From Geodermatophilus tzadiensis (GTDB taxonomy: Bacteria > Actinomycetota > Actinomycetes > Mycobacteriales > Geodermatophilaceae), in contig NZ_PVTG01000002.1 of assembly GCF_003002915.1 (NCBI RefSeq), positions 62,001-126,000 of the forward strand: a DNA stretch of 64,000 nucleotides, read 5' to 3'. Each line of letters begins with the position of its first letter. The first letter of the stretch is position 1. Shown here one piece after another: positions 2,226-12,282 of this stretch. A program made the translations under genes and the position numbers. Under the pieces are notes generated by a model. The model searched no databases. It was given only the letters and a program-made list of their open reading frames with translations, and had not been told where the DNA came from.

Positions 2226-3368
2226 CTACCGCGGGCCGAACGCCACCACCCGGAACGCGCCGAACAGCGCCGGGGGAGCGGGCGAGTCCCACATCTGGTT
2301 GGTGAGCAGCACCGCCGTCGTCCTGGTGACGGGGTCGGTCCACCAGGAGCCGCCCAGGCCGCCGTCCCAGCCGTAGGAGCCGGCGTGCCGGCCGCCGGGC
2401 TCGTCGGTGCGCCGGACGCCGAGGCCCAGTCCCCAGCCGCCGCCCTCGTCGTCGACCGGGCCGACCTGCTCGGTGAGCATCGCGCGCACGGTGTCCGCGC
2501 CGAGCACCGGCGCCCCGCCGGTCCGCAGCGCCCGGGCGAGGGCCGCGAGGTCGTCGACCGTGGACACCAGCCCGTCGGCGCCGTCGGGGAAGGCCGGCAG
2601 CGAGGCCCACTGGCCGTCGGCGGGGTCGTACACCCGGCGGGCGCCGGCGTCGTCCGGCGGGGTCCAGTGCGGCCCGAACCGGTCCCGGGCGTGCGCGGGC
2701 ACGGCGAAGCCGGTGTCGGCCATGCCCAGCGGGGTGAGCACCCGCTCGGCGAGCACCTCGGGCAGCGGCCGGCCGGCGGCCCGGGCGACGAGCACGCCGA
2801 GCACGCTGGCACCCACGTGGTAGAGCCAGCGCTCGCCGGGCTGGTGGGCCAGCGGCACGGTGGCGACCCGGTGCAGCCACTCGTCGGTCGAAGGTGCGGC
2901 CTGCGGCGCCGGTGGCCCGGCGGGCAGGCCGGTCGCCGCCAGGGCGGCCACCGTGGGCGTCGGCCACGGCGCCGTGAAGTCGATGCCGAGGCCGAGGCGG
3001 AACGTGAGGACGTCGCGGACCGTGATCGGCCGCCGGGCGGGCACGGTGCCGGCGTCCGCGTCGGCGGGGTCGGCCAGCACCCGCCGCCCGGCGAGCTCGG
3101 GCAGGTGGCGGTCCACCGGCTCGTCGAGGGCGAGCGTGCCGCCCTCGACCAGCGCGAGCGCGGCGACCGCGACCACGGGCTTGGTCACCGAGGCGATGCG
3201 GAAGACCGCGTCCGGCGGGAGCGCGTCGTCCCCACCCGGGGTGTGCGCGCCGGCCGCGCCGCGGGCCACCTCCTCCCCGTCGCGCTCGACCCGCCAGGCC
3301 GCGCCCGGCACCGCGCCCGCGGCCACCGCCTGCGTGACGACCTGCTCGACGTCCCGTGCCAGCCCCAT
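2226..3368 (-). CDS. Serine hydrolase, beta-lactamase class C family
   Basis: A 380-residue member of the class C beta-lactamase/penicillin-binding-like esterase family. The nucleophile motif SVTK (S60, K63) is followed by a central RWLYHVG segment at the place of the family's Y-x-N motif, and a late HAGSYGWDGGLGG stretch corresponds to the third H/K-x-G motif. No signal peptide is seen, so a cytoplasmic esterase or peptidase is more likely than a secreted beta-lactamase. The start is set at the ATG at 3368 because residues upstream in frame are low-complexity and cover the divergent promoter region. It is divergent from the DUF1801 gene with 53 bases between. Confidence 0.85.
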   Translation of the reverse strand: MGLARDVEQVVTQAVAAGAVPGAAWRVERDGEEVARGAAGAHTPGGDDALPPDAVFRIASVTKPVVAVAALALVEGGTLALDEPVDRHLPELAGRRVLADPADADAGTVPARRPITVRDVLTFRLGLGIDFTAPWPTPTVAALAATGLPAGPPAPQAAPSTDEWLHRVATVPLAHQPGERWLYHVGASVLGVLVARAAGRPLPEVLAERVLTPLGMADTGFAVPAHARDRFGPHWTPPDDAGARRVYDPADGQWASLPAFPDGADGLVSTVDDLAALARALRTGGAPVLGADTVRAMLTEQVGPVDDEGGGWGLGLGVRRTDEPGGRHAGSYGWDGGLGGSWWTDPVTRTTAVLLTNQMWDSPAPPALFGAFRVVAFGPR

Positions 3369-4350: not shown

Positions 4351-6540
4351 TCAGCGTGCGCCGGCCAGCTGGCGGCCCTCGGCCAGCGGCTCGCCCTCGG
4401 ACTCGCGGACGCCGTAGCGGGCGTAGAACCGGCCCAGCGGCTCCGGCGCCCACCAGTTCGCCCGGCCGAGGAGCCGCATGGTGGCCGGCACGAGCAGGGC
4501 CCGCACGACCGTCGCGTCGACCACGATCGCGATGAGCATCGCCACCCCGATCATCTTGATCAGGACGACGCCGGAGAGCGAGAAGGCGCCGATCACCACG
4601 ACGAGCAGCAGCGCCGCGCTCGTGATGATGCCGCCGGTGCGCTGCAGCCCGGTGGCCACCGCGGCGGTGTTGTCGCCGGTGAGGTCGTACTGCTCCCGGA
4701 TCCGGGACATGAGGAAGACCTCGTAGTCCATCGACAGCCCGAAGACGATGGCCAGCACCAGGATCGGCGAGGTGGCCTCGACGAACCCGGTCGGGGTGAA
4801 GTCCAGGAGCCCGGAGAGGTTCCCGTCCTGGAAGATCCACACCAGCGCGCCGAAGGAGGCGCCCAGGGACAGCACGTTCATCAGCACCGCCTTGACCGGC
4901 AGCACGACCGAGCCGAACGCCATGAAGAGCAGGACGAACGACGTCACCGCCACCAGGAGGGCCATCCACGGCAGCAGCTCGCCGAGGCTGTCGAGCAGGT
5001 CGGCGTACACCGCGCTGGTGCCGCCGACGAGGACCTCGGCGCCGTCCGGTGCGGGCACCTGCCGGACCGCCGCGACCAGGTCCCGGCCCTCGGTCCCCAG
5101 CGCGTTGACGTCGGCGGCGACCACCACCCGTGCCGTGCTCCCGGCGATCTCGGCGACCGCGGCGCCGTCCACCCGGGGGACGGCGCCGACCGCGTCGACG
5201 TAGGACTGCAGCGCCGCGCCGCCCTCCGGGGTGTCGGCGGGACCGGGGAGGGTGAGCACCGCCTCGACCGGACCGGACGGGCTCGGCGGGAAGTCCTGCT
5301 CGATCGTCTCGGCGACGACCCGGCTCTCCGCGCCCTCGGGCATGGCGCGCACGTCGATGCCGCCGAACTCCGCGCGCGTGAACGGCAGGGCCAGCACGAC
5401 GAGCACCGTCCCCACGACCAGCGTGTACAGGACCGGACGGCGCATGACGCTGTGCGCGATGCGGTACCAGACCCCGTCGCGCTCGACGTCGGCGTGCGCC
5501 GGGCGCCGTCGCCGAGGCAGGAGGCGCCGCAGCGACAGGGCGTCGACGCGCGGACCGAGGACGGCCAGCAGTGCCGGCAGCAGGGTGAGCGCGGCGAGCA
5601 TCGCGATGAACACGGCGCTCATCCCGCCGAAGCCCATCGAGCGCAGGAACACCTGCGGGAAGACCAGCAGGCCGGCGAGCGAGACCGCCACGGTGACGCC
5701 GGAGACGGCGACCGTGCGCCCGGCGGTCGCCATGGTGCGGGCGAGCGCGTCCTCCACGGTGGCCTGCCGGCGGACCTCCTCGCGGAACCGGCTGACCACG
5801 AACAGCCCGTAGTCGATGGCCAGCCCGAGGCCGAGCACGGTGACCACGTTGACCGCGAAGATCGACACGTCGGTCACCAGCCCGAACGCCCGCAGGGCCG
5901 CGAACGAGCCGAGGATCGCCGTTCCCCCGATCGCCAGGGGCAGCGCGGCCGCGGCGAGGCCACCGAAGATGACGACGAGCAGGATCGCCAGGACCGGCAG
6001 CGAGATGGTCTCCGCCGTCGCGATGTCCTCGCTCACCAGCAGGTTCATGTCCCGGTTGAGGGTCACCTCCCCGCCGATCCGGGTGGTCAGCCCGGGGGCG
6101 GCCAAGTCGTCCTCGATGGCGTCGAGGACGTCCTCGCGCCCGTCCTCGTCGCCGCGCAGGCTGAGGACGGCGTAGGTGCTGCGCCGGTCCTCGCTCACCA
6201 GGAAGGCCGCGCCCGTGTCGTACCAGGACACCGTGCGCAGCACGTCGTCCCGGGGGAGGGCGTCGAGCGTGGAGGTGACCGCCTCGGCGTAGGCCGGGTC
6301 GTCGACCGTCATCCTGTCGCTGGAGTACAGGACGACGACGTCGGCCGCGCTGCGGCCTAGTTCCCGCTCGGCCACCTCGGCGGCCCGGGAGCTCTCGCTG
6401 TGGGGGTCGGCGAAGCCGCCGCCGGTCATCTGGCCGAAGACACCGGTGCCCCAGACGCCGGCGACGACGACGAACACCACGGAGAGCGCCAGGACCCAGC
6501 GGCGCCGGCGGTACACGGTGCGACCCAGTGCCTCGAACAC
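4351..6540 (-). CDS. MMPL family membrane transporter
   Basis: A 729-residue RND-type transporter of the MMPL family, which in actinobacteria exports lipids, siderophores or drugs using the proton gradient. It has the duplicated architecture: a lone N-terminal segment, a large external loop (about residues 45-165), five membrane segments, then a second half with the same plan. Typical motifs are GLAIDYGLFVVSRFREE in half one and FGLSMDYEVFLMSRIREQ in half two, with the paired Asp/Tyr thought to carry protons. The GTG at 6540 is preceded by GGGGAG at good distance. No MmpS partner or TetR regulator is adjacent, so the substrate is open. Confidence 0.9.
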   Translation of the reverse strand: MFEALGRTVYRRRRWVLALSVVFVVVAGVWGTGVFGQMTGGGFADPHSESSRAAEVAERELGRSAADVVVLYSSDRMTVDDPAYAEAVTSTLDALPRDDVLRTVSWYDTGAAFLVSEDRRSTYAVLSLRGDEDGREDVLDAIEDDLAAPGLTTRIGGEVTLNRDMNLLVSEDIATAETISLPVLAILLVVIFGGLAAAALPLAIGGTAILGSFAALRAFGLVTDVSIFAVNVVTVLGLGLAIDYGLFVVSRFREEVRRQATVEDALARTMATAGRTVAVSGVTVAVSLAGLLVFPQVFLRSMGFGGMSAVFIAMLAALTLLPALLAVLGPRVDALSLRRLLPRRRRPAHADVERDGVWYRIAHSVMRRPVLYTLVVGTVLVVLALPFTRAEFGGIDVRAMPEGAESRVVAETIEQDFPPSPSGPVEAVLTLPGPADTPEGGAALQSYVDAVGAVPRVDGAAVAEIAGSTARVVVAADVNALGTEGRDLVAAVRQVPAPDGAEVLVGGTSAVYADLLDSLGELLPWMALLVAVTSFVLLFMAFGSVVLPVKAVLMNVLSLGASFGALVWIFQDGNLSGLLDFTPTGFVEATSPILVLAIVFGLSMDYEVFLMSRIREQYDLTGDNTAAVATGLQRTGGIITSAALLLVVVIGAFSLSGVVLIKMIGVAMLIAIVVDATVVRALLVPATMRLLGRANWWAPEPLGRFYARYGVRESEGEPLAEGRQLAGAR

Positions 6541-8407: not shown

Positions 8408-9118
8408 TCAGGAGTGCAGGCCGCACTCGGTCTTGCCGCGGCCGGCCCAGCGCCCCGCACGCGGGTCCTCACCGGGGGCCACGGGGCGGGTGCACGGCGC
8501 GCAGCCGATCGAGGCGTAGCCGATCTCCTGCAGCGGGTTGACCGGCACCTGGTGCTCGGCGACGTAGGCGTCGACGTGCTCCTGCGTCCAGGCCGCGAGC
8601 GGGTTGACCTTGACCATCCCGCGCTTGGCGTCCCAGTCGACGACCCTCGTGCCCGCGCGGGTCGCCGCCTCGTCGCGGCGCACGCCCGAGCCCCAGGCGG
8701 TGTAGCCGGCCAGCGCCTGCGCCAGCGGCTGCACCTTGCGCAGCGCGCAGCACAGGTCGGGGTCGCGCTGGTGCAGGTCGGGCCCGTGCTCGGCGTCCTG
8801 CTCGGCCACCGTCCGCGGCGGCGTCACGTTCACCAGGGTGATCGGCATGACCGCGCTGACCCAGTCGCGGGTGCCGATCGTCTCGGCGAAGTGGTAGCCG
8901 GTGTCGAGGAAGACCACGTTCACCCCGGGGACGGCGCGGCCGGCCAGGTGCGCGAGCAGCCCGTCGGCCATCGACGAGGTGATCGCGAAGTCGTCGCCGA
9001 AGGTCTCCCCGGCCCACCGCAGGACGGCCAGTGCCTGCTCGACGGGGTCGGCGATGCCCTCGAAGCGGGCGTCGGCCTCGGCGGCGAGCTCCGGCGTGGG
9101 CCGGACGGCGGTCGTCAT
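8408..9118 (-). CDS. cysH: Adenylyl-sulfate (APS/PAPS) reductase
   Basis: A 236-residue CysH enzyme reducing activated sulfate to sulfite in cysteine biosynthesis. The catalytic ECGLH motif is at the C-terminus (ECGLHS). The CC pair in DLCCALRK and the CxxC in IGCAPCTRP are the ligands of a [4Fe-4S] cluster, the mark of APS-using reductases common in actinobacteria rather than the cluster-free E. coli PAPS form. The N-terminal ITSSMADGLLAHL and VVFLDTGYHFAET are the nucleotide-binding loops. The ATG at 9118 overlaps the preceding stop (ATGA), so it is translated with the zinc-ribbon and sulfite reductase genes upstream. Confidence 0.93.
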   Translation of the reverse strand: MTTAVRPTPELAAEADARFEGIADPVEQALAVLRWAGETFGDDFAITSSMADGLLAHLAGRAVPGVNVVFLDTGYHFAETIGTRDWVSAVMPITLVNVTPPRTVAEQDAEHGPDLHQRDPDLCCALRKVQPLAQALAGYTAWGSGVRRDEAATRAGTRVVDWDAKRGMVKVNPLAAWTQEHVDAYVAEHQVPVNPLQEIGYASIGCAPCTRPVAPGEDPRAGRWAGRGKTECGLHS

Positions 9119-9291
9119 GGTTCCCGTACTCCTGTCCCGGTGAGCCGGACGGTGAAGGTCCGCAGGCACGCGGCGCAGTGCCAGCCGCCCTCGTCCCCGT
9201 GCGGGGTCAGCTCCTCGTCCCCGCAGTACGGGCAGTGGAACACGGGCAGCGGGCGCTGCCTTCCCGAGGGAGACGGCCGACCCTCGGTCAC
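9115..9291 (-). CDS. Small zinc-ribbon protein of the sulfite reductase operon
   Basis: A 58-residue protein with two CxxC knuckles, CPYCG at residues 20-24 and CAAC at 39-42, giving a rubredoxin-like zinc ribbon. It begins at a GTG overlapping the sulfite reductase stop (GTGA) and its own stop overlaps the cysH start (ATGA), so it is clearly part of the operon. Its function is not established. Possible roles are a redox or metal-binding helper for sulfite or APS reduction, or a regulator. The end, TFTVRLTGTGVREP, suggests one more strand. Short Zn-ribbon proteins at this position occur in other actinobacteria. Confidence 0.75.
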   Translation of the reverse strand: MTEGRPSPSGRQRPLPVFHCPYCGDEELTPHGDEGGWHCAACLRTFTVRLTGTGVREP

Positions 9292-10976
9292 AGCAGCCAG
9301 GCCTCCTCGGCGCGCGAGACGTAGTGCGCGAAGGACTCGCCCGCGGTGCGCCGCTCGAGGAACCCGCGCAGCACCCGCTCGCAGTAGTCGGCGGTCTCGG
9401 CCTTGGTCACCTTGTGGCCGCGGAACTTGCGGCCGAAGGTCGCCTCCACGCCGAGGTGGCCGCCGAGGTGCACCTGGAAGCCCTCGACCATCTCGCCGTT
9501 GTCGTCGCGGACCATCGAGCCCTTGAAGCCGATGTCGGCGGTCTGGAACCGCGCGCAGCTGTTCGGGCAGCCGTTGACGTTGATGCCGATGGGGGTGTCG
9601 AAGTCCGGCAGCCGCTTCTCCAGCTCGGCGTACAGGTCCTGCGCGTGCTGCTTGGTCTCGACGATCGCGAGCTTGCAGAACTCCAGGCCGGTGCAGGCCA
9701 TCGTGCCGCGGCGGAAGGCGCTGGGCCGGACCTGCAGGTCGTGGGCGGCGAGCGCGTCGACCAGCGCCTCCACCCGCTCGTCGGGCACGTCGAGGATGAC
9801 CAGCTTCTGCTGCGTCGTCGTCCGGATGCGCCCCTGCCCGTACTCGTCGGCGAGGTCGGCGATCGTGGTGAGCAGCGAGCCGCTGATCCGCCCCGTGCGC
9901 AGCGCGAAGCCGACGGCGTTGCGGCCGTCCTTCTGCTTCGAGACGCCGACGTGGTCGCGCTGGTCGTGCTTCGCCGGGGCGGGCGCCGGGCCGTCGGGCA
10001 GCTCCGTCTTGAGGTACTCGTCCTGCAGCACCTGGCGGAACCTCTCCGGGCCCCAGTCGGCCATGAGGAACTTGATGCGGGCGCGGTTGCGCTGCCGGCG
10101 GTAGCCGTAGTCGCGGAAGATCGCGGTGCAGGCCGCCCAGACGTCGGTGACCTGGTCGGGCCGGACGAAGACGCCGATCCGCTGGGCGAACATCGGGTTG
10201 GTCGACAGGCCGCCGCCGACCCACAGGTCGTAGCCGGCCTCGCCGTCCTCGTTGCGCACGCCGACGAAGGAGACGTCGTCGATCTCGGGCTCGGTGCAGT
10301 GGTCGACGCAGCCGGACATCGACGTCTTCCACTTGCGCGGCAGGTTGCTGAACTCGGGGGAGCCGACGTACTTCTCGACGGTTTCGGCGATGACGTCGGT
10401 CGCGTCGATGACCTCGTCCTCGAGGATCCCGGCCAGCGGGCAGCCGAGCATGACGCGCGGGACGTCGCCGCAGGCCTCCATCGTGCTGAGGCCCACCGAC
10501 TCCAGCCGGCGCCAGATCTCGGGCACGTCCTCGATGCGGATCCAGTGGTACTGCACGTTCTGCCGGTCGGTGACGTCGGCGACGTCGCGGCCGAACTCGG
10601 TGCTGATGCCGCCCAGCACCCGCAGCGCGTCGCTGGTCAGCTGACCGCCGTCGATGCGGGCCCGCATCATGAAGTACGAGTCCTCGAGCTCCTCGGGCTC
10701 CAGCACGGCGGTCTTGCCGCCGGGGATGCCCTGGGCGCGCTGGGTGTAGAGACCCATCCAGCGCATGCGGCCGCGCAGGTCGCTGGGGTCGATGCCGCCG
10801 AAGCCGGTGTGCGCGTAGATGTCGAGGACGCGCTGGCGGACGGTGAGGCCGTCGGCGTCCTTCTTCATCCGCTCGTTGGGGTTGAGCGGCTCCCGGTAGC
10901 CCAGTGCCCACTGGCCCTGGCCGCGCTGGGGGGTGTCGCGGCGCGGCGGTCGGTTGGTCGTACGGGGGGTGGTCAC
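9288..10976 (-). CDS. Nitrite/sulfite reductase (ferredoxin-type, siroheme)
   Basis: A 562-residue siroheme and [4Fe-4S] reductase, most like ferredoxin-dependent sulfite reductases of actinobacteria (SirA type), converting sulfite to sulfide with six electrons. The cluster and siroheme ligands are the four cysteines of CTGLEFC and CPNSC in the C-terminal third. Two half-domain repeats are present, the first with MSGCVDHCTEPEIDD. The position directly upstream of cysH supports sulfite rather than nitrite as substrate. The GTG at 10976 is preceded by a very strong AGGAGGAA at 8 bases; longer in-frame reading would run through a leader-peptide gene. FdxA from this window is a possible electron donor. 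Confidence 0.92.
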   Translation of the reverse strand: MTTPRTTNRPPRRDTPQRGQGQWALGYREPLNPNERMKKDADGLTVRQRVLDIYAHTGFGGIDPSDLRGRMRWMGLYTQRAQGIPGGKTAVLEPEELEDSYFMMRARIDGGQLTSDALRVLGGISTEFGRDVADVTDRQNVQYHWIRIEDVPEIWRRLESVGLSTMEACGDVPRVMLGCPLAGILEDEVIDATDVIAETVEKYVGSPEFSNLPRKWKTSMSGCVDHCTEPEIDDVSFVGVRNEDGEAGYDLWVGGGLSTNPMFAQRIGVFVRPDQVTDVWAACTAIFRDYGYRRQRNRARIKFLMADWGPERFRQVLQDEYLKTELPDGPAPAPAKHDQRDHVGVSKQKDGRNAVGFALRTGRISGSLLTTIADLADEYGQGRIRTTTQQKLVILDVPDERVEALVDALAAHDLQVRPSAFRRGTMACTGLEFCKLAIVETKQHAQDLYAELEKRLPDFDTPIGINVNGCPNSCARFQTADIGFKGSMVRDDNGEMVEGFQVHLGGHLGVEATFGRKFRGHKVTKAETADYCERVLRGFLERRTAGESFAHYVSRAEEAWLL

Positions 10977-10992
10977 GGTGGCACTTCCTCCT

Positions 10993-11011
10993 GCGCCGCC
11001 CGTCGCGGCGC
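10993..11011 (-). promoter_or_regulatory. Hairpin abutting the sulfite reductase ribosome-binding site
   Basis: A perfect 7-base-pair inverted repeat, GCGCCGC and GCGGCGC with a 5-base loop, ends directly next to the AGGAGGAA ribosome-binding site (positions 10985-10992) of the sulfite reductase gene. It lies between the leader peptide stop (11078) and the reductase start. It could be a translation- or transcription-attenuating element. Confidence 0.45.
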
Positions 11012-11077
11012 CGGACCGGGACGGGGAGGGCGCTGCCGGATCGGGGGCGCAGCGGGTGCTGCGGGGGACCTCGGGTG

Positions 11078-11173
11078 TCAGCGCGCGGGGCGACAGACCG
11101 CGCTGCTCACCAGCGCCAGGTCGATGTGGCGGCGCGCGACGAGGAGCAGGGCGCGACCGGACACGCGCTCCAT
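11078..11173 (-). CDS. Leader peptide upstream of sulfite reductase
   Basis: A 31-residue ORF, ATG at 11173 to TGA at 11078, about 100 bases before the sulfite reductase start. Its second half reads RRHIDLALVSSAVCRPAR. Short peptides with a basic R-R-H-x-D-L start and a Cys-Arg near the end are known upstream of sulfur-assimilation genes in actinobacteria, and cysteine-coding leader peptides in mycobacteria act as cysteine-responsive attenuators. I infer the same here: ribosome stalling at the Cys codon when charged tRNA-Cys is scarce would alter the downstream hairpin and raise expression of the operon. The single Cys codon makes it less obvious than polycysteine leaders. Confidence 0.75.
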   Translation of the reverse strand: MERVSGRALLLVARRHIDLALVSSAVCRPAR

Positions 11174-11206
11174 GGTCGCACACGCGCGGCCGTGGCCGCG
11201 GTCACG

Positions 11207-11761
11207 TCAGGCGGCCGACGAGGCGCCGCCACCGTCCATGGCCGCGCGGATCCGGGCCACCGACTCGGCCAGCGGGGTGACCGACGTGTCGATCACCAGC
11301 TCGGCGCGGGCGGGCGGCTCGTAGGGGTCGTCGACGCCGGTGAAGCCGGTGAGCTCGCCGGACCGGGCGCGGGCGTAGAGGCCCTTGACGTCGCGGGCCT
11401 CGCAGACCTCCAGCGGGGTGGCCAGGTGCACCAGCACGAACCGGCCGTGCCGCTCGACCAGGGCCCGGGCCTCCTCACGTGCCTGCTCGTAGGGGGCGAT
11501 CGCCGCCACGACGACGGTGCCGCCGTGCCGGACCACCTCGCCGGCGACGAAGCCGATCCGCCGGATGTTGAGGTCGCGGTGCTCCCGGGAGAAGTCCAGC
11601 TCGCTGGACAGGTGGGTGCGGACGACGTCGCCGTCGAGGACCGTCACCGGCCGCCCCTCGGCCTCCAGCTCGGCGACCAGGGCGTCGGCCACGGTCGACT
11701 TGCCCGCGCCGGACAGGCCGGTGAGGAAGACGGTGACGCCACCGTGCTGCGCGCTGCTCAC
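11207..11761 (-). CDS. cysC: Adenylyl-sulfate kinase
   Basis: A 184-residue APS kinase that phosphorylates adenosine 5'-phosphosulfate at the 3' hydroxyl to make PAPS for sulfation or reduction. The P-loop GLSGAGKST is at residues 15-23, followed by the family motifs LDGDVVR, FSREHRDLNIRRIGFVA, and VKGLYARARSGEL. Length is that of stand-alone CysC; there is no fused sulfurylase domain and no cysD/cysN in the window. The GTG at 11761 gives the family N-terminus. It sits just upstream of the leader-peptide/sulfite reductase operon on the same strand, with 33 bases between its stop and the leader ATG. Confidence 0.92.
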   Translation of the reverse strand: MSSAQHGGVTVFLTGLSGAGKSTVADALVAELEAEGRPVTVLDGDVVRTHLSSELDFSREHRDLNIRRIGFVAGEVVRHGGTVVVAAIAPYEQAREEARALVERHGRFVLVHLATPLEVCEARDVKGLYARARSGELTGFTGVDDPYEPPARAELVIDTSVTPLAESVARIRAAMDGGGASSAA

Positions 11762-11805: not shown

Positions 11806-12282
11806 TCAGTCGCGGGCGCGCTCGTCGCTGAAGGAGCGCCAGGCGCTCTCGACCGCGGCCAGCTCCGCCACGGGGTCGGGCAGCCGCCCGGCGACGACGT
11901 CGGCCAGCGTGACCTCCTCCAGCACCCGCCGGTAGGCGGCGCGGGCGGCGACCCAGACGCTGGCCAGCTCCGCGGCGGCGCCGGGGTAGCTGACGTCCTC
12001 GGGGCGCTGCCCGTGCACCTCGGCGAGGAAGCCCTGCTCCACCCGCATGACGCGGGCGATGGAGATCTCCGACGCCGGCAGCGCCAGGCGGTAGCCGCCC
12101 TCCCGGCCCCGCTGGCTGGTGACGAGGCGGGCGTGCTGCAGGTCGCCGAGGATGCCCTGCAGGAAGCGCGACGGGATGTCCTGCGCGGTGGCGATCCGGT
12201 CGCAGGTCAGGCTGCCCGGGGCCGCCGCGGCCAGCTCCAGGGCCGCGCGGACGGCGTAGTCGACCCGGGCCGTGATGCGCAC
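11806..12282 (-). CDS. Rrf2 family transcriptional regulator
   Basis: A 158-residue Rrf2-type winged-helix repressor. The N-terminus RITARVDYAVRAALEL and the helix-turn-helix segment DIPSRFLQGILGDLQHARLVTSQRGREGGYRLA are typical. The three-cysteine cluster-binding loop of IscR/NsrR is absent: only one Cys (residue 27) is present, as in CymR-like sulfur regulators that sense metabolites rather than an Fe-S cluster. Its place just before cysC and the sulfite reductase operon suggests control of sulfur assimilation. GTG at 12282 has GGAGGGAG at 4-11 bases upstream. It is divergent from the SRPBCC-Nudix gene. Confidence 0.87.
   Translation of the reverse strand: MRITARVDYAVRAALELAAAAPGSLTCDRIATAQDIPSRFLQGILGDLQHARLVTSQRGREGGYRLALPASEISIARVMRVEQGFLAEVHGQRPEDVSYPGAAAELASVWVAARAAYRRVLEEVTLADVVAGRLPDPVAELAAVESAWRSFSDERARD

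Follow-up and report, generated by a model that had tools for sequence, protein, structure and literature searches.

A single UGU codon in fixed peptide register as the probable cysteine sensor of a leader peptide upstream of nirA in Geodermatophilus tzadiensis

A short open reading frame (ORF) upstream of the sulfite/nitrite reductase family gene nirA of Geodermatophilus tzadiensis is likely to encode a leader peptide that senses cysteine by a single UGU codon, held in fixed register with the peptide; the cysteine response is what we infer from its sequence. The leader is a real one of the cysteine type and ordinary in kind; its unexpected feature is the one UGU in fixed register. The window analyzed, meaning the whole stretch of DNA, comprises 64,000 nucleotides. 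An earlier note on this DNA had proposed a cysteine-responsive leader akin to those of mycobacteria, and this core reading is upheld by matches to NCBIfam leader profiles, a conserved peptide with its Cys, in-frame purifying selection and four further copies before sulfur-type genes. Its remark that a single Cys codon implies an unusual mechanism was sound. The fixed UGU, the fixed register, a C-rich tract and the conserved CAGCGC/GCGCAG segments are additions made here.

The genes of the locus lie on the minus strand in the order Rrf2-type regulator, cysC-type gene, leader, nirA, 58-residue ORF and cysH-type gene. The nirA gene (9288..10976, minus strand) starts with GTG at 10976 and carries the Pfam domains NIR_SIR and NIR_SIR_ferr, as found by a scan of the longer ORF 9288-11183. 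The best NCBIfam match of its product is ferredoxin--nitrite reductase, at 368 bits against a cut-off of 594, and we take the enzyme to be probably a sulfite reductase because of its cysC-type and cysH-type neighbors. The former (11207..11761, minus strand) is an adenylylsulfate (APS) kinase gene by its Pfam domain APS_kinase, and its end lies 42 nt upstream of where the leader probably starts. The latter, the second gene after nirA, encodes a PAPS/APS reductase (8408..9118, minus strand; Pfam PAPS_reduct), its ATG having been picked by eye within ORF 8408-9169. Between nirA and the cysH-type gene lies the 58-residue ORF (9115..9291, minus strand) with two CxxC pairs, whose zinc-ribbon match is sub-threshold (19.4 bits, cut-off 25.4). 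The Rrf2-type regulator (11806..12243, minus strand; assigned by Pfam), upstream of the cysC-type gene, may be a second layer of control over the sulfur genes.

The 31-codon ORF with the C-terminus V-C-R-P-A-R that the earlier note had described is present at 11173..11078 on the minus strand. It has a single Cys, ends in RRHIDLALVSSAVCRPAR followed by the stop codon, and its stop lies 101 nt upstream of the nirA GTG at 10976, in agreement with the roughly 100 bases given before. The ATG at 11173 did not hold up as the start, since the aligned codon is ATG in only 11 of 64 Geodermatophilaceae leaders, whereas codon 11164-11162 is GTG or ATG in 63 of the 64. Translation therefore probably begins at GTG 11164, three codons after ATG 11173, which gives a leader of 28 codons (11078..11164, minus strand) reading (V/M)SGRALLLVARRHIDLALVSSAVCRPAR and then stop. 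About 7 nt before this start, position frequencies in the 64 leaders reveal a conserved block, tgtgnnA[CG]nAT (11172..11182, minus strand), that could be the -10 region of a leaderless transcript; a simple scan of the window for a sigma-70 promoter found none within 10900-11300. Leaderless mRNA has been cited for mycobacterial leaders in PMC9031893. Alternatively, the leader may have a Shine-Dalgarno start by way of the GGAG stretch that precedes the GTG in G. tzadiensis.

The peptide is conserved in relatives, a point on which the earlier note had wished its proposal to be checked. In the best 80 of 572 nirA relatives, fetched from genome contigs, the motif R-x-x-[ILVM]-D-[LF]-x7-C occurred in a short frame upstream of nirA in 77, compared with 1 of 1600 dinucleotide-shuffled upstream regions. 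In the other three (L107, L108 and L111) the motif pattern found no leader within 1500 nt. The window copy and the 77 relatives make up a set of 78 nirA leaders, of which the 64 mentioned above are the Geodermatophilaceae subset. The pN/pS ratio over the motif was 0.305 in frame and 3.0 and 1.29 in the shifted frames. In the 31-codon numbering, Arg14, His16, Asp18, Leu19, Ser24, Ala25 and Cys27 are invariant in 64/64 leaders, and several of their codons vary. By these sequence comparisons the ORF is under peptide-level selection and hence very probably translated. A second Cys (TGC), 11 codons before the Asp and near the leader start, was seen in 18 of the 64 leaders, 14 of the 18 being of the Modestobacter type.

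The window peptide scored 29.7-29.9 bits against NCBIfam NF042936 (leader_Ms4527A; curated cut-off 45) and 22.8-23.8 bits against NF042934 (cis_reg_atten; cut-off 27), the latter alignment covering all 19 positions. We submitted 63 of the 78 nirA leaders to these profiles, and at E<=0.01 leader_Ms4527A matched 62 and cis_reg_atten 61 of them. Since the window peptide falls below both cut-offs we claim no formal membership; the likeness is kept because the nirA leaders of two relatives (L127 and L128) exceed the cis_reg_atten cut-off with 33.8 bits. The profile scores thus suggest that the window leader works like the NCBIfam leaders, as an ortholog of accepted ones. Ms4527A and Ms5788A, the subject of work by Canestrari et al. 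in 2020, are reportedly cysteine-responsive polycysteine leader ORFs of mycobacteria. By profile match to NF042936 and NF042934 these belong to the same peptide family as the window peptide, sub-threshold as its own scores are. Common to both are sulfur operons (here nirA and the cysH-type gene downstream, and four other loci in the same genome), several copies per genome and a Cys near the stop; a leaderless start may be common to both as well. They differ in that the mycobacterial leaders have a run of Cys codons and the nirA leader has one, UGU. The trp, his and leu attenuators likewise place their sensor codons near the leader end, the leu leader using a rare codon. The nirA leader differs from them in lacking an intrinsic terminator in the window and in relying on one codon, with presumably one tRNA for both spellings. 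The candidate cys leaders of Seliverstov et al. (2005; PMC1262725) likewise stand before cys genes without an intrinsic terminator, but they are described as having several Cys codons in a row close to the stop, whereas the nirA leader is single-Cys.

Five leader loci stand out among 15 matches in the genome of G. tzadiensis, with E <=0.0012 compared with about 0.7 or more for the others. They precede nirA and TauD-, cysteine dioxygenase-, DUF4395/sulfurtransferase- and TauE/SafE-type genes, the four non-nirA genes being named by likeness to relatives scanned with Pfam. The four further leaders, L001-L004, are on contigs C20, C4, C1 and C2. By eye, a TANNNT box in L001 and L003 is followed at 6-7 nt by an in-frame ATG or GTG, and in L004 the GTG is preceded, at about 7 nt, by TAGACAT. 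Within the family, a leader match at E<=0.02 was obtained in 56 of 57 genomes, and a draw of 246 genomes from the whole phylum gave 16 with one at the strict limit of E<=1e-4, the own genome being included in both counts. Sixty family leaders were chosen from among the matches listed, nine of them nirA leaders, and for 59 a downstream protein could be assigned. These proteins form eleven clusters, named after the Pfam names of their representatives: TauE (11), nirA, NAD_binding_9 and DUF4395 (9 each), cysteine dioxygenase (8), luciferase-like monooxygenase and MetN-type ABC (3 each), TauD, rhodanese and Trans_reg_C (2 each) and NMT1 (1). Most of the clusters are presumably sulfur-linked, with no link evident to us for NAD_binding_9, Trans_reg_C and NMT1.

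The putative sensor codon (11093..11095, minus strand) is spelled TGT at the motif Cys in 78/78 nirA leaders. TGT accounts for 15 of 736 Cys codons within the nirA genes, and the other Cys codons after the Asp in the nirA leaders are TGC in 11 of 11 cases. In the 60 family leaders, the motif position is occupied by TGT (56), TGC (2) or Gly (2); upstream of it all 31 Cys codons are TGC, and downstream there are 13 TGC and 3 TGT. The genes behind these leaders contain 2 TGT versus 142 TGC, and the 39 predicted genes of the window 9 TGT versus 125 TGC. Fisher values for this bias overstate its significance, because the leader sequences are related. The phylum sample gave the same picture, with TGT at the motif Cys in 27 of 28 leaders, some of them with this Cys as their final codon. 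Its other Cys codons are 37 TGC and 11 TGT, and all 11 of the latter fall in four polycysteine leaders (L185, L186, L187 and L199). In leaders ending like CTATCPGC (L163 and L179) the motif Cys is spelled UGU and the last Cys UGC, so that by sequence the UGU rule depends on how far the codon lies from the peptide motif rather than from the stop. In L169 and L170, which precede an NAD_binding_9 protein, Gly occupies the sensor position and a Cys follows two codons further on (TGC in one, TGT in the other); in reading direction, their leader match is some 200 bases away from the upstream end.

This pattern suggests that the UGU spelling is itself part of the cysteine sensor. One tRNA-Cys with anticodon GCA, we assume, reads both UGU and UGC, and UGU would then be kept over UGC because decoding by tRNA-Cys must be slow exactly there. 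We put forward only tentatively, doubting it somewhat more than we believe it, that leaders of this kind form a single-codon sensor class in several actinobacterial families, in which the invariant Arg and Asp in a TnaC-like register sensitize one A-site codon and UGU itself is required. If so, codon spelling rather than tRNA identity would set the cysteine-sensing threshold, and a synonymous choice between two codons of one tRNA would be regulatory. Runs of Cys codons are the known mark of cysteine leaders; here a single codon seems to suffice, and its spelling is fixed against a strong genome bias to which the remaining Cys codons of these peptides conform. Such a sensor can be tested through a single base change. 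A search for the choice of UGU in cysteine leaders turned up no paper, and it may already be in print (Canestrari 2020; D'Halluin 2023).

The peptide around this codon is held in register as well. The segment RRHIDL (codons 14-19; 11117..11134, minus strand) contributes Arg14, His16, Asp18 and Leu19 to the invariant residues of the nirA leaders. In the non-nirA leaders Arg14, Asp18 and Leu19 are each present in 55/55, the Arg encoded by five different codons, and His16 in only 31/55. The Asp-to-Cys spacing is 9 codons in 78/78 nirA leaders, the search pattern having allowed 7 to 9. When UGU occupies the A site, the P-site residue comes 8 residues after Asp18 and 12 after Arg14. The codon after Cys encodes Arg in 58 of 64 nirA leaders; among the 55 others it encodes Pro 27 times and Arg 21 times. 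The earlier suggestion of stalling at the Arg/Pro codons is not supported, given this variability, and of the Cys-Arg pair whose conservation the earlier note had wished to see checked the Cys is invariant (64/64) and the Arg is not.

According to the mechanism we favor, the leader would be translated and charged tRNA-Cys sensed. When cysteine is scarce, the ribosome would pause with UGU in the A site, the Arg and Asp of its nascent peptide being by then in the exit tunnel, 12 and 8 residues back from the P site, and the paused ribosome would raise expression of nirA and probably also of the cysH-type gene. When cysteine is plentiful, the ribosome would pass over four codons to the stop and expression would stay low. 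The output step, at a probability we would place slightly short of even, would be translational control, and conserved RNA segments on the minus strand would allow it. Segment 1 (CAGCGC, 11100..11105) lies in the leader before the Cys codon and can pair with segment 2 (GCGCTG, 11079..11084), which consists of the last Arg codon and the first two stop-codon bases. Segment 3 (CAGCGC, 11030..11035) lies in the non-coding spacer; its possible partners are segment 2 and, through its GCGC, segment 4 (GCGCAG, 10991..10996), which overlaps the first Shine-Dalgarno bases. Segments 1 to 3 are invariant in all 43 aligned leader loci, in all of which the leader end reads GCGCTGA; segment 4 is exact in 41 and deviates by one base each in L045 and L087. 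The 43 loci of these alignments (A1 and A2) were taken from the 78, Modestobacter-type, Klenkia-type and more distant loci being left out because their spacers aligned poorly; a wider alignment took 58 leader loci together. A ribosome at the stop would hide segment 2 and leave segment 3 free to pair beside the Shine-Dalgarno sequence, and a ribosome held at UGU would leave segment 2 free to hold segment 3.

RNAalifold paired segment 1 with segment 2, setting the UGU codon in the loop of that hairpin, and joined segment 4 to the GCGC of segment 3. A three-helix structure consists of the segment 2:3 pairing, an inner stem (helix 2) and a spacer hairpin (helix 3), the 6-bp hairpin CGCAGC-ACCC-GCTGCG at 11048..11063 (minus strand), which is the CAGC/GCTG stem of the earlier note and is real. 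The covariation score of the three-helix structure was 0.082 on the unfitted alignment compared with 0.052 for shuffled alignments, and 0.116 compared with 0.064 when the alignment was fitted to the structure. Four pairs changed on both sides in the unfitted alignment, a number not unusual as it was reached by 116 of 500 shuffles. In helix 3, 92.6% of cells were paired with 2 pairs changed on both sides (unfitted), or 95.8% with 3 such pairs (fitted). Of the three helices, the spacer hairpin has the strongest support in these alignments, because the segment 2:3 pairing hardly varies and the inner stem is paired in 65-66% of cells. The segment pairs are nearly invariant and so carry no covariation. 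When the spacer was folded alone, the right arm of the hairpin paired with segment 4 instead. Folding energy was modestly unusual for leader plus spacer (z -2.09, 6 of 200 shuffles as good); for the spacer alone z was -1.53, with 15 of 200 shuffles as good. A spacer model, R1, gave 48 matches at E<=0.01 in 81 nirA sources, 43 of them training sequences, and none in 33; it was weak or absent in Modestobacter and Klenkia. At 54 other leader loci it had no clear match (6 weak ones, best E 0.019), and Rfam had no match in the window at gathering score. The 7-bp GC hairpin that had been proposed as a control element (10993..11011, minus strand) is present, as 11011-11005/10999-10993, and adjoins AGGAGGAA. 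As a conserved helix it was rejected, with 57.5% of cells paired compared with 53.3% for the structure slid by two columns.

Folding calculations gave no support to a stall-dependent opening of the nirA ribosome-binding site in either of two versions. The difference between the two ribosome states was 0.16 kcal/mol compared with 0.02 for shuffled spacers (p 0.70, n=56), and an earlier version counted 11 loci for and 9 against out of 57. Opening the site cost 7.64 versus 8.42 and 7.48 versus 8.40 kcal/mol for real versus shuffled spacers in the two states, so that in the model real spacers leave it easier to open in both, the opposite of a masking structure. The conserved segments would allow a trp-like switch on translation, and the energy calculation shows none.

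The main rival keeps the same sensor and replaces the output. A ribosome at UGU would cover the entry to a C-rich Rho-loading tract and, on its leaving, Rho would end transcription before nirA, a geometry like that of TnaC with the opposite signal. We regard this as possible, though rather doubtful, and keep it because Rho would require such a tract. The 80 nt after the leader stop (10998..11077, minus strand) are C-rich and G-poor, with C minus G of 0.237; in the 64 kb, 0.39% of the 6392 stretches of that length, counted on both strands, reach 0.238. C exceeded G over the same distance in 55/55 non-nirA leaders (mean 0.238) and in 76/78 nirA leaders (mean 0.186), and the 80 nt before the leader start had no C excess (mean -0.006, 34/78 positive). 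The tract is common to nearly all measured leaders and the nirA spacer elements are not. A scan for intrinsic terminators (GC hairpin plus U run) found no site within 10900-11300 of the window; short T runs are visible in some distant relatives, e.g. L114 and L123. Seliverstov et al. (2005) proposed Rho for mycobacterial cys leaders, grading this prediction themselves as "rather weak" (PMC1262725). However, 4 of the 26 intergenic stretches of the window also reach 0.15, with a maximum of 0.23, and the Cys leaders of Mycobacterium smegmatis are cited, in PMC13236596 and PMC9031893, as translation attenuators.

The fixed register could also mean nascent-chain arrest, in which the peptide itself halts the ribosome and cysteine or a derived metabolite may be sensed in the tunnel. 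Arg, Asp and Leu are invariant at a fixed distance from UGU before nirA and in ten other downstream-gene clusters, and the spacing is that of TnaC, which requires D16 and W12, i.e. 8 and 12 before P24, according to PMC3902921. TnaC and the nirA leader are both short leaders, with Rho as a possible output. However, this likeness, one of spacing and not of sequence comparison, was noticed after the fact with TnaC as the sole motif compared and is only a lead; TnaC senses the presence of free tryptophan and not scarcity, and a sensor of a free metabolite would not need a conserved Cys codon. We consider arrest by the peptide itself unlikely.

That UGU is kept for RNA base pairing and not for decoding appears quite improbable. 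In the nirA leaders UGC would create CUGC, for which the GCAG in the hairpin and in segments 3 and 4 could be a pairing partner, and RNAalifold, as described, keeps UGU in a loop; UGU is equally fixed, however, in leader families that lack the nirA spacer elements and whose neighboring bases vary, and extended pairing is an unlikely reason for it because the neighboring codons vary. A conserved but passive 5' feature, or a nirA gene under a repressor only, for which the nearby Rrf2-type gene would be a candidate, is very improbable given peptide-level selection and recurrence before unrelated genes.

Sensing of cysteine by the single UGU, as preferred here, would make the leader with its UGU a simple signature for likely cysteine-controlled actinobacterial genes, including those for the NAD_binding_9 and DUF4395 proteins of unknown role. 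In two places, leader matches stand back to back about 130 bases apart, as if one region drove two cysteine-controlled operons: at G033:C126 (6255-6311, minus strand, and 6444-6497, plus strand, in L125) and at G005:C388 (2705-2758, minus strand, and 2886-2942, plus strand).
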